This document shows positions 34,634-38,138 of a DNA stretch of 64,000 bases, one piece after another. The stretch lies in the NCBI GenBank assembly GCA_017454915.1, contig JAFTCC010000028.1, positions 1 through 64,000 on the forward strand, in the 5' to 3' direction. The position numbers and the translations under genes were made by a program. Within the stretch, counting starts at the first letter, position 1. Every line of letters begins with the position of its first letter. The notes below the pieces were generated by a model. The model saw nothing but the letters and a program-made list of their open reading frames with translations. It had not been told where the DNA came from and made no database searches. Origin of the DNA: Paludibacteraceae bacterium. GTDB taxonomy: Bacteria; Bacteroidota; Bacteroidia; Bacteroidales; Paludibacteraceae.

Positions 34634-35005
34634 TCATAATCCCAGCACCACATCAGGCGCTATATTGAGTTTTATGCATATCTTGCGTGCAAGGGAAAGG
34701 CTCGGTTCTATCTTTCCGTGCATAATCTCGCTCATTCTTGGTGCGCTGATGCCAAGCAACTCGGCAATTCCTTTTTGCGATAACCCCATTTCGTACATAC
34801 GGAGCCGGAGGACAGAAATCAATGATGGTTTTTCTATGGGATAGTGTTCGTCCTCATAGTCTGCCACGAGTTCCGAAAGCAGGCTCAGCTCAATATTTTC
34901 GGCACTATCTTCACTGATACTGTCTTCCCACGTATAAGGTAGCAATTCGTTAATCCGATTCATTGCTGCCTCATATTCCTTTTCTGTTTTAATTTTTGCT
35001 GCCAT
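34634..35005 (-). CDS. higA: HigA-type antitoxin, HTH regulator
   Basis: 123 residues. The first 70 are acidic and helical, the remainder is an XRE/HigA-like helix-turn-helix (MGLSQKGIAELLGISAPRMSEI at about 74-95, in two parts). It follows the HigB toxin gene with a 12-base gap, the toxin-first order of HigBA modules. The antitoxin binds and neutralises the toxin, and represses the shared promoter, where a 9-bp inverted repeat is visible (35315-35343). The long N-terminal extension is normal for the Bacteroidales form. Confidence 0.88.
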   Translation of the reverse strand: MAAKIKTEKEYEAAMNRINELLPYTWEDSISEDSAENIELSLLSELVADYEDEHYPIEKPSLISVLRLRMYEMGLSQKGIAELLGISAPRMSEIMHGKIEPSLSLARKICIKLNIAPDVVLGL

Positions 35006-35017
35006 AGGTTGGTTTAG

Positions 35018-35314
35018 TTATATGTTTTTTATGTCCGCTATTCTGTCATATTCTGCATGCGTGCCGACGAAACGGGTATATACGTGCATAGGAGAAAACT
35101 TTATTACTACAACTAATCTGAAATCATTCCCCTTTATGTTAAAAACGTAGTGCTGATTTCCGGCATAGTCAACAGAGTTAAAAGTGTTGCGGATATCAGA
35201 TAGATTATGCCACTCGGCATTGTTGGTCTTGTTATACCATTCTTCAAGCGCATCTTTCGCTTGAGGATGTTCTGAATAGTATGTTATAAGTGTTTTGCGT
35301 GAAATAACTCTCAT
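35018..35314 (-). CDS. higB: HigB-type mRNA interferase toxin
   Basis: 98 residues of the HigB_toxin family: MRVISRKTLITYYSEHP at the start, a central WHNLSDIRNTFNSVDYAG and the core strands YVFNIKGNDFRLVVVIKF, ending with the FVGTHAEYDRI motif (His and Tyr near the active site). The toxin cuts mRNA on the ribosome when the antitoxin is lost. First gene of the module; its ATG lies just inside the operator palindrome, with a leader of about 18 bases. Confidence 0.9.
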   Translation of the reverse strand: MRVISRKTLITYYSEHPQAKDALEEWYNKTNNAEWHNLSDIRNTFNSVDYAGNQHYVFNIKGNDFRLVVVIKFSPMHVYTRFVGTHAEYDRIADIKNI

Positions 35315-36302: not shown

Positions 36303-37055
36303 TTATATTCGTCCTGAACCTCCGCATCTGCCGCATTTGCCATTACCGCCGGGGCATAAAGCGCAGCGGGCAGGCTCGCTGCCATATTTACTTGTGAACC
36401 ATCCTTTGCCGTTACATTGCGTGCAGGTGCCTGTGCCATTGCATGTAGGGCAAAGTTTTGAACTAGACCCTGATGAGTATGATGATGACGGCGAGTAATG
36501 TTCAACGTTAGGTACGGCAACTTGTGTCTGATAGGTTTCGAAGTGATACACACGCCCATTATCGTCGTGCTGTTTGTTACATCTGCCTGAGCCGTAGCAT
36601 ATAAAACAAGGAAATGTGAACATACCTGAATAAACTTTACCGCTTCCACTGCAACCCGTGCAGACCCCTCCTGTTTTATTGCAGGGGCAGATATAGCTGG
36701 TCTGATGAACCCACGTACCGCTTAAATCGGTCCACCATATATCTGCTCTACCATCATTAAAATTATCTCCGAATAATAATAACCTGTTATTGCTGTCGCA
36801 CTTATATACCGAAGTCCTATTGTCATGTGGAATTTCAACATAATATGAACCATCATTATAGAACGTTATTGTCCTGTCTCCGACATTTTCTACGTGGTCT
36901 ACTGTCAGCCCTTGTCCTATTACATGTGTGCAGACAGCGGGAAACATTATCATAGCACACACTATTAGTGATTTCAAAAGAAATGAGGCTTTTGCTGCTC
37001 TTTTGAAGAATTCGCATCGCGGCGATAATTCTTGCTGTTTGTTTTCTTTTTTCAT
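36303..37055 (-). CDS. Envelope protein with DnaJ-like cysteine repeats
   Basis: 250 residues; basic start, a hydrophobic segment at about 25-48 (signal or anchor), a beta-rich part with FYNDGSYYVEIP, and then from about residue 123 to the end a series of CxxC units, several as CxxCxGxG (CTGCSGSG, CFICYGSG, CPTCNGTG, CTQCNGKG, CGRCGGSG), as in the zinc-binding region of DnaJ. A serine/tyrosine-rich linker splits them into two groups. Zinc-ribbon repeats of this kind normally act in the cytoplasm; a predicted extracytoplasmic location is unusual. Function unknown; it could bind metal or misfolded protein. Confidence 0.7.
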   Translation of the reverse strand: MKKENKQQELSPRCEFFKRAAKASFLLKSLIVCAMIMFPAVCTHVIGQGLTVDHVENVGDRTITFYNDGSYYVEIPHDNRTSVYKCDSNNRLLLFGDNFNDGRADIWWTDLSGTWVHQTSYICPCNKTGGVCTGCSGSGKVYSGMFTFPCFICYGSGRCNKQHDDNGRVYHFETYQTQVAVPNVEHYSPSSSYSSGSSSKLCPTCNGTGTCTQCNGKGWFTSKYGSEPARCALCPGGNGKCGRCGGSGRI

Positions 37056-37254
37056 GACGTTATAAATTTTTGTGTGGGTTGTGTAGCTGATGAAAAAAAT
37101 GCCATTAGAGTCCAGTTAAAATTAGGAACAAGTGAGATATTAATCACGTAGCCCGGAAGTGTACCCAGGAGTGTGTTTGTGTTTTCTTTGTATAGATGTG
37201 CAAAAATAGTAATTTCTCTTTAATCTGCCAAATTAAGTCACTTCTTTGCAAATT
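37056..37254. other. Intergenic region upstream of cysteine-rich protein
   Basis: AT-rich, no gene; should hold the minus-strand promoter of the 36303-37055 gene. Several TTTGCA and TTTGC words are present but no unambiguous TTG-spacer-TAnnTTTG pair on the minus strand was read. Confidence 0.4.
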
Positions 37255-37296
37255 AAAAAAACTTATGTAAAGGTTGCTATTTTAGTTTTTTGTATT
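37255..37296. repeat. 42-bp direct repeat, copy 2, with promoter
   Basis: Identical to 35399-35440. Here the downstream end reads into TATCTTTG (37295-37302 region), which with the TTG in GGTTG about 19-20 bp upstream makes a good plus-strand promoter. It points toward the structured RNA that begins about 90 bases later. Confidence 0.85.
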
Positions 37297-37357
37297 ATCT
37301 TTGCAAAAAAAAAATTTTTAATTAATTTTTATGCCTATGTAAAAAGTCAAAAATTTC

Positions 37358-37389
37358 TTTTGCACAACATAAAGGTAGCGTTATCTTTA
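37358..37389 (+). promoter_or_regulatory. Promoter of the structured RNA
   Basis: TTTTG at 37358-37362, 19-bp spacer, TATCTTTA at 37382-37389. Transcription should start near 37395, exactly at the foot of the long hairpin. Confidence 0.65.
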
Positions 37390-37394
37390 GTTCT

Positions 37395-37546
37395 CACTTT
37401 CTAAAAATCGGCAAATTTTAACAAGGTGATGAGAAGTAAAGTTAGACGCTCACTCGTTTGAGTGGGCTTTACTTCGTAAAATTCATCACCAGAGGTGTTT
37501 GCCGATACCTTAGAAAGTGGATTAAAAAAGTTTAGTCCACTTTTTT
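37395..37546 (+). ncRNA. Long-hairpin small RNA (6S-like candidate) or attenuating leader
   Basis: A nested hairpin of about 125 nt: stems 37395-37404/37510-37519 (CACTTTCTAA/TTAGAAAGTG), 37407-37415/37498-37506 (ATCGGCAAA/TTTGCCGAT), 37425-37432/37483-37490 (GGTGATGA/TCATCACC), 37434-37441/37467-37474 (AAGTAAAG/CTTTACTT) and a CACTC/GAGTG tip, separated by internal loops. It is followed by an intrinsic terminator, AGTGGA/TCCACT (37516-37521, 37536-37541) and a T run to 37546. Own promoter, a single extended hairpin with internal bubbles, and a terminator are what a 6S RNA would show; the known Bacteroidota 6S family (6S-Flavo) is the first model to test. Alternatively it is the leader of the gene at 37635: no promoter was seen between, and AGTCC of the terminator can pair instead with GGACT at 37565-37569. 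Confidence 0.65.
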
Positions 37547-37634
37547 GTGCCTCGTCAACCAACGGACTACAAAACTTCAAATTAAGAAAATTTTTAACCG
37601 ATGGTCGATGGGATATAAGTGACCAACAAACAAA

Positions 37635-38138
37635 ATGAAAAAACTAATGCTTACAATCACATTTATGTTTGCCGCCATCATGATGGCAAGCGCGGAAATC
37701 ACAGATGCTCAAATCCAGGAGAGCAAAGACAGAGTAGAGAAAATCCGTGAAATCAAATCCAATCTTGAAAATGCCTCAACAGGCAACGCTACTGTTGATG
37801 GTTTCAAGGACAAGGCGGTAGAAACATGTGAAGAAGTCATCCAAAGCGGTGAAAAAATGGCGGAACTTTATGAGGCTATGAACTCAGGTAAGAATGTTCT
37901 CAACGAGGTTATGGCACTCAGCACGCAACTAATAGAAGAAGGCAAGAAAGCCGCAGAAATGGGTAAAATGGCAGAACCTGCGGCCAAGGCCATCAAAGAA
38001 ATCAAGAACCCCAAAGCTTTGATTAGTGCAAAGAAAATCATTACAGGAGCCACCGATGCCAGCACACAGACTATCAAAGAGATAGCCTTCCAAGTGCAAC
38101 TTGTTAAAGAAATGGTTGACGTTCTGAAAAGCAGATAA
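37635..38138 (+). CDS. Small helical secreted protein, unknown function
   Basis: 167 residues; signal peptide (MKKLMLTITFMFAAIMMASA, cut near residue 20), then an almost wholly helical, lysine/glutamate-rich chain (KSNLENASTGN, EEGKKAAEMGKMAEPAAKAI) with coiled-coil character and a single Cys (ETCEE). Probably periplasmic. I do not recognise the family. It lies 88 bases after the terminator of the structured RNA and has no promoter of its own that I can see, so it may depend on read-through from that unit. Confidence 0.7.
   Translation: MKKLMLTITFMFAAIMMASAEITDAQIQESKDRVEKIREIKSNLENASTGNATVDGFKDKAVETCEEVIQSGEKMAELYEAMNSGKNVLNEVMALSTQLIEEGKKAAEMGKMAEPAAKAIKEIKNPKALISAKKIITGATDASTQTIKEIAFQVQLVKEMVDVLKSR

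Follow-up and report, generated by a model that had tools for sequence, protein, structure and literature searches.

In the classical layout of a transcription attenuator, consecutive segments of the leader RNA can pair as 1:2, 2:3 or 3:4. In Bacteroidota, structured 5' transcribed regions have been described in Flavobacterium psychrophilum, among them Flavo-1 (RF01705); some of these work by leader-peptide attenuation and many have no Rfam match (PMC9723704). Furthermore, Fremin and Bhatt (2021; PMC8040213) reported a list of 3161 palindromic candidate RNAs with predicted terminators, mostly from Bacteroidetes.

Here, we describe an interrupted hairpin found in a stretch of 64,000 nt from a Paludibacteraceae bacterium (contig JAFTCC010000028.1, positions 1 to 64,000; hereafter the window, whose features lie on the forward strand unless stated otherwise). 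The hairpin is a non-chance structure and a member of an RNA family that has no Rfam match and occurs across Bacteroidota. The evidence tips, with some reserve, towards a 5' leader RNA that attenuates transcription in cis, and this leader is probably an on/off attenuator rather than a stand-alone small RNA.

The long hairpin and its family

The interrupted hairpin at 37392-37521 has a minimum free energy (MFE) of -57.7 kcal/mol, compared with -30.1 +/- 3.9 kcal/mol for 200 dinucleotide shuffles (z -7.1), none of which equalled it. This long hairpin, termed state I, is built from the stems P1 (37395-37404 with 37510-37519), P2 (37407-37416 with 37497-37506) and P3/P4 (37425-37452 with 37459-37490), and two alignments of its copies contain changes on both sides at 18 of 27 and 22 of 34 pairs, respectively. 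The long interrupted hairpin that the first-pass annotation had drawn at 37395-37519 is therefore real, and its stems do covary across copies, a check which that annotation had itself proposed. The T run that it had placed behind the hairpin, as part of an intrinsic terminator, is present at 37541-37546, and the complementarity that it had noted between AGTCC and GGACT holds, with GGACT at 37564-37568, one base away from the position then given. The structure drawn was, however, half of the picture: the second, mutually exclusive fold of both halves was missed, and the mini-ORF at 37331-37342, the eight other copies in the genome and the consistent position before genes were likewise absent. 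An outer stem, P0, can form between GCACAA (37362-37367) and TTGTGC (37545-37550), with weak support in the family.

A DNA search among 60 relatives returned 14 convincing copies, including two further ones in the window's own genome, and a covariance model made from nine copies was used for wider searches. With this model, nine matches at E < 0.002 were obtained in the window's own genome, and the element was present in 142 of 200 genomes and 26 of 33 genera of the same taxonomic family, where single genomes contain as many as 14 copies. Wider draws gave 101 carriers among 295 genomes at the level of the order and 40 among 392 at that of the phylum. Named carriers include Paraprevotella clara, Alistipes sp. 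dk3624, A. muris, Sunxiuqinia indica, Pedobacter mendelii and a Sphingobacterium; the copy in P. clara YIT 11840 lies on NZ_JH376583.1 (L094:6143-6306). Some pairs of copies (e.g., at the loci L008/L013, L024/L026 and L127/L150) are 91-97% identical within the element and sit in unrelated flanks, which shows that the element has been dispersed as a unit. The plasmid and phage collections gave no DNA match to it; one IMG/VR viral contig carries a copy (L213:12314-12484), located upstream of a 190-aa protein without signal peptide.

Rfam has nothing at gathering level at the window locus, where only meaningless matches appear up to E = 10, and a scan of 39 family loci with Rfam 15 gave none over threshold; neither Flavo-1 (RF01705) nor any other Rfam model matches the element in the genome, the window or the scanned homologues. 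Neither Rfam 15 nor the open papers that were searched contain a description of the family.

Two mutually exclusive folds

Each half of the long hairpin can close on itself. In the 5' half, segment a (37377-37400; conserved AGCGTTA(t)CTTT..TTCTCA) pairs with segment b (37423-37452; GATGAGAAGTAAAGTTAGACGCTCA..) to form the hairpin H1 (37377-37450), which continues inwards with 37396-37400 paired to 37423-37427 and 37404-37408 to 37415-37419. In the 3' half, segment c (37461-37474) pairs with segment d (37528-37541), and together with inner helices this gives H2 (37461-37541), which is followed directly by the U run (37541-37546) and thus resembles an intrinsic terminator. Segment b has either a as its partner, in H1, or c, in the long hairpin. 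When folded alone, the 5' half reaches a mean z of -3.0 and the 3' half of -3.6 over 150 distinct copies, and the folding into half-hairpins is also seen in highly diverged copies, such as that of Sphingobacterium.

Since the spacing varies between copies, the two folds were examined by an alignment-free swap test, in which the pairing energy of matched segments is compared with that of partners exchanged among 179 non-redundant copies. The resulting z values are -21.5 for a:b, -29.9 for c:d, -30.0 for b:c, -88 for P1-P3 and -12.7 for the middle of H1, whereas the control combinations a:c, b:d, P1-5:P3-3 and P3-5:P1-3 lie between -2.7 and +0.8; these unpredicted combinations stay near 0, so that the test is also controlled for relatedness. 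Weaker values were obtained for the outer stem P0 (-4.1) and for the pairing of d (AGTCC, 37534-37538) with the complementary segment e, the GGACT at 37564-37568 (-7.6, versus -0.4 for a region 400 nt further on). A listing of pair types illustrates the matched changes, with C-G, T-A, G-C and A-T as alternatives among copies at positions 15-21 of segment a. Selection thus acts on the long hairpin as well as on H1 and H2, because matched changes are kept in a:b, c:d, b:c and P1-P3 while the controls remain near 0.

Other approaches were less informative. RNAalifold on sequence-conserved alignments of the halves gave one-sided changes only, and consensus folding of the halves in MAFFT alignments gave invariant cores without changes on both sides; the differing spacing makes such alignments uninformative, which is why the partner swap was preferred. 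Two further helices were considered: a:d as a conserved outer helix was rejected (swap z +2.6), and the inner H2 helix, P3-3':P1-3', received no support (z +3.8) in a split that was crude.

The U run that closes the c:d helix, defined as at least six T in 9 nt, is found in 187 of 212 copies. Of 179 copies whose MFE fold of state I was computed, 148 leave d unpaired or bound to the distant 5' end, so that the long hairpin would serve as antiterminator. A local hairpin that uses d forms in 44 of the 179, the window copy included, and can coexist with the long hairpin; in the window it lies at 37516-37541 (GTGGATTAAA/TTTAGTCCAC, -12.6 kcal/mol) and is special to the window's subfamily. A terminator is therefore possible in both states of the window copy, and it is in exactly this copy that the switch is least clear. 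State I exceeds H1 plus H2 in stability by about 15 kcal/mol on average, and prefix folding of the window copy shifts to state I before H2 is complete, so that termination at H2 must be brought about by kinetics, by a factor or ligand, or by stabilisation of H1.

Promoter, mini-ORF and downstream genes

A perfect Bacteroidota-type promoter sequence, TTG-N19-TATCTTTG, is located at 37274-37303, with TTG at 37274-37276, a 19-nt spacer and TATCTTTG at 37296-37303, and transcription is predicted to begin near 37310. Across the family, 129 of 171 copies have a TAnnTTTG in the 15-130 nt before the element, versus 13.6 in shuffles, and 66 have the bipartite TTG-N18-22-TAnnTTTG, versus 1.6. The first-pass annotation had placed the transcription start at 37395, on the strength of a box TTTTG-19-TATCTTTA (37358-37389) that lies 80 nt further downstream; this box overlaps RNA segment a, in its conserved GCGTTA(g/t/a)CTT part, and TAnnTTTG is found at that position in only 14 of 212 copies, so that a promoter there was rejected. 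Some elements appear to have no promoter of their own, since a same-strand ORF ends at most 120 nt upstream in 30 of 171 copies and since, at the locus L284, the two genes that flank the element have diverged relatives in other genomes that stand side by side with no element between them.

Between the promoter and segment a, the window carries a mini-ORF, ATG CCT ATG TAA (37331-37342; also ATG TAA at 37337-37342). At -60 to -22, 99 of 149 copies have an ATG whose reading frame is closed by a stop within three codons, versus 27 in shuffles (maximum 41 in 200 trials), with none, one or two codons between ATG and stop in 95 of these 99; of 157 ATGs, 126 have a stop in their own frame, compared with 26 and 38 for the two remaining frames. 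Copies differ in their stop codon (TAA, TAG, TGA), which favours translation of the mini-ORF. A role as sensor is a guess, because about a third of the copies lack the mini-ORF and because it sits about 30 nt before segment a, where a ribosome would not cover a. Copies without mini-ORF (L223, L226, L268, L269, L270) often have in its place a short, perfect hairpin directly behind the promoter, upstream of segment a.

The element is consistently placed in front of genes: a same-strand ORF starts at most 150 nt downstream in 101 of 126 copies, compared with 26 of 126 on the other side and with 27% of random positions, and the median distance from the end of the element to the start codon is 60 nt. 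About 75% of the downstream proteins have a signal-peptide-like hydrophobic N-terminus by a crude hydrophobicity test; the products include lipoproteins, BACON and beta-barrel proteins, as well as small HTH and LytTR proteins, and in other classes TonB/SusC-type receptors begin about 200-600 nt downstream. In the window, the gene served by the leader (37635-38138) encodes a 167-aa protein with an N-terminal signal peptide recognised by eye (MKKLMLTITFMFAAIMMASA-EITDAQ...) and no Pfam family. A search for empty sites through the proteins of the downstream genes found no clean one, only diverged (43% identical) relatives free of the element, because the downstream genes are accessory and diverged.

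The surroundings of the copies hold several other regularities. The divergent neighbour of the window copy (36303-37055, reverse strand) encodes a protein rich in Cys, and its N-terminus, MKKENKQQELSPRCEFFKRAAKA, is matched by that of the product encoded downstream of L053, a further copy of the element in this genome (MKKENKQEELQSRREFFKSAAKAALPVIG...); the mature part of the L053 product is Cys/Gly-rich, and the two look like exported Cys-rich peptides of one family that share a leader. Further away, the adjacent small ORFs at 34634-35314 (reverse strand) resemble, by eye, a HigB-type toxin (98 aa) and an XRE/HigA-type antitoxin (123 aa). A second conserved motif, approximately CCGAAAAnCCGA..AGAGTAGGCA, is found 20-50 nt before start codons in the 5' UTRs of L009, L012, L033, L288 and L292, and also precedes genes without the hairpin element. 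In other classes, in the leaders of SusC-type receptors (L245, L247, L252, L254, L261), an TTGCCTATGNNNTAA mini-ORF is found downstream of the element, and a further hairpin of the form CCTCT...AGAGG..TAGCTAA, approximately, before the gene. Finally, HTH proteins of about 70-80 aa with the pattern R-[TS]-V-x-W-L-A-[KR]-Q are encoded directly downstream in distant genomes (L006, L059, L114, L170, L222).

A predicted attenuator, its alternatives and known systems

The family, the two folds and their maintenance, the U run, the enrichment of promoter and mini-ORF and the orientation are all computed, and three properties of an attenuator are found together: a same-strand gene downstream, two exclusive folds that are both maintained, and a terminator hairpin directly on a U run. 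Position, alternative folds and U run favour what the first-pass annotation had offered as its third reading, a leader or attenuator of the small secreted protein at 37635. In the mechanism that we propose, RNA polymerase would start from the promoter at 37274-37303 and pass the mini-ORF, after which the 5' half would be transcribed and could shut as H1 (a:b). The 3' half could then shut as H2 (c:d) directly on the U run, and transcription would end. Alternatively, b would take c, H1 would open and the long hairpin of state I would form, leaving d without its terminator partner and allowing the polymerase to continue into the gene of the exported protein. Termination would then be regulated, with H1 as a possible sensor and with the mini-ORF, through a ribosome, or a factor choosing between the two states. 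The d:e pairing is located beyond the U run and attenuation does not need it; lying past the U run, it would act, if at all, in read-through mRNA.

More tentatively, and with chances that we place well below even, these leaders may constitute a phylum-wide, multicopy class of attenuators that couples many genes for exported proteins (lipoproteins, secreted proteins, TonB receptors) in each cell to one common signal. This signal would be sensed by way of a two-codon ORF and an RNA switch based on strand exchange, the long hairpin being made of two halves that are complete hairpins in themselves. If so, a sizeable share of gut and environmental Bacteroidota would have one unrecognised switch, in as many as 14 copies per genome, before genes for surface and secreted proteins, those with which Bacteroidota meet their host and their neighbours. 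It would also give a concrete handle on the co-regulation of exported proteins in a phylum with few known leader RNAs, namely a single RNA family whose two-state fold can be tested, with a minimal leader ORF and known segments to mutate.

Among the alternatives, a stand-alone or 5'-UTR-derived small RNA appears rather unlikely. Such an RNA would end by default at the U run and act in trans as a stable molecule of 200 nt, for example by pairing with other copies, and the downstream gene would be expressed only through read-through or from another promoter. The strict position and orientation before genes, with a median of 60 nt to the start codon, do not agree with this, nor do the same-strand genes that end within 120 nt upstream in 30 of 171 copies, and maintained a:b and c:d alternatives would be superfluous for a static RNA; on the other hand, the very stable fold (z -7.1), the U run in 187 of 212 copies, the extra local terminator of the window's subfamily and the about nine copies whose shared segments could pair mutually would all suit it. 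A stand-alone RNA that starts at 37395 and has its own promoter had been the headline of the first-pass annotation, and it is disfavoured by the nine copies in the genome, by the likely promoter further upstream and by the same-strand genes that the copies lead.

It is improbable that the element is instead a MITE- or REP-like mobile or repeat element of nested inverted repeats, kept in 5' regions, whose RNA folds are by-products of DNA palindromes. Its many copies, the pairs that are 91-97% identical in unrelated flanks, the partly covarying outer stem P0, which resembles terminal repeats, and matches near contig ends in fragmented genomes are what such an element would give, whereas the orientation bias (101 versus 26 of 126), the promoter and mini-ORF enriched at set positions and the U run on one side only are not; moreover, copies are far diverged and yet have matched changes, and neither a transposase nor a precise empty site was found. 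A multi-copy mobile inverted repeat was the outcome that the first-pass annotation had regarded as fatal to a structured RNA: the hairpin is indeed dispersed in many copies, yet its stems covary. Dispersal and regulatory function are compatible and not mutually exclusive. Guide-like pairs had also raised bridge-RNA, retron, attC and IS200/605 elements, which were dropped as no enzyme is consistently a neighbour in the copies that were read.

We give scarcely more than a slight chance to a translational regulator, in which the long hairpin and d:e would control the access of ribosomes to the start codon or protect the 5' end from nucleases, with termination unregulated. H2 and the U run closely match a terminator, and the element ends on average about 60 nt before the start codon, which it does not include; what speaks for this reading is that d:e covaries weakly (z -7.6), with e past the U run and sensible only in read-through mRNA, and that the mini-ORF suggests the involvement of ribosomes. 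A 6S RNA homologue, the type named first by the annotation together with a check against Rfam models, is excluded, since its long interrupted hairpin and 6S-like size are set against no match at 37200-37700 up to E = 10, another 6S-Flavo-like locus in the genome and a multicopy leader position.

The attenuator leader can now be set beside the described systems. With 6S-Flavo (RF01685) it shares a long interrupted hairpin of similar size and differs in the lack of a match, the copy number and the leader position; the 6S-Flavo-like locus of the same genome (C63:58602-58716) scores 50.1 bits, under the gathering score of 85, so that the Rfam model seems to miss the 6S RNA of the host's clade. The named examples of PMC8040213 are 80-132 bp long and lie near other genes, and the full list of 3161 is outside the comparison, so an independent earlier detection is possible. 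The leaders of F. psychrophilum are likewise structured 5' leaders of Bacteroidota, and the family may include one of the 64 unnamed ones (PMC9723704), which lie outside the comparison; Flavo-1 (RF01705) differs, as it has no match here. The closest likeness in layout is to the leader-peptide attenuators of trp and his operons, which also have a leader ORF, segments pairing as 1:2, 2:3 and 3:4 with the last pair directly on a U run, and a place in the 5' UTR of the regulated gene; the segments a-b-c-d, which are complementary as a:b, b:c and c:d, follow this attenuator layout. As judged from sequence, the predicted leader would thus be of a known kind, whereas the family, its use in many copies across the phylum before exported proteins, and its build as a hairpin of two hairpins are not known to us. 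In contrast to trp and his, the leader ORF encodes 1-3 residues without amino-acid codon bias and is missing in about a third of the copies, the genes are mostly for exported proteins and not for amino-acid pathways, H1, H2 and the antiterminator each measure some 20 bp or more, and one family is present in many copies.
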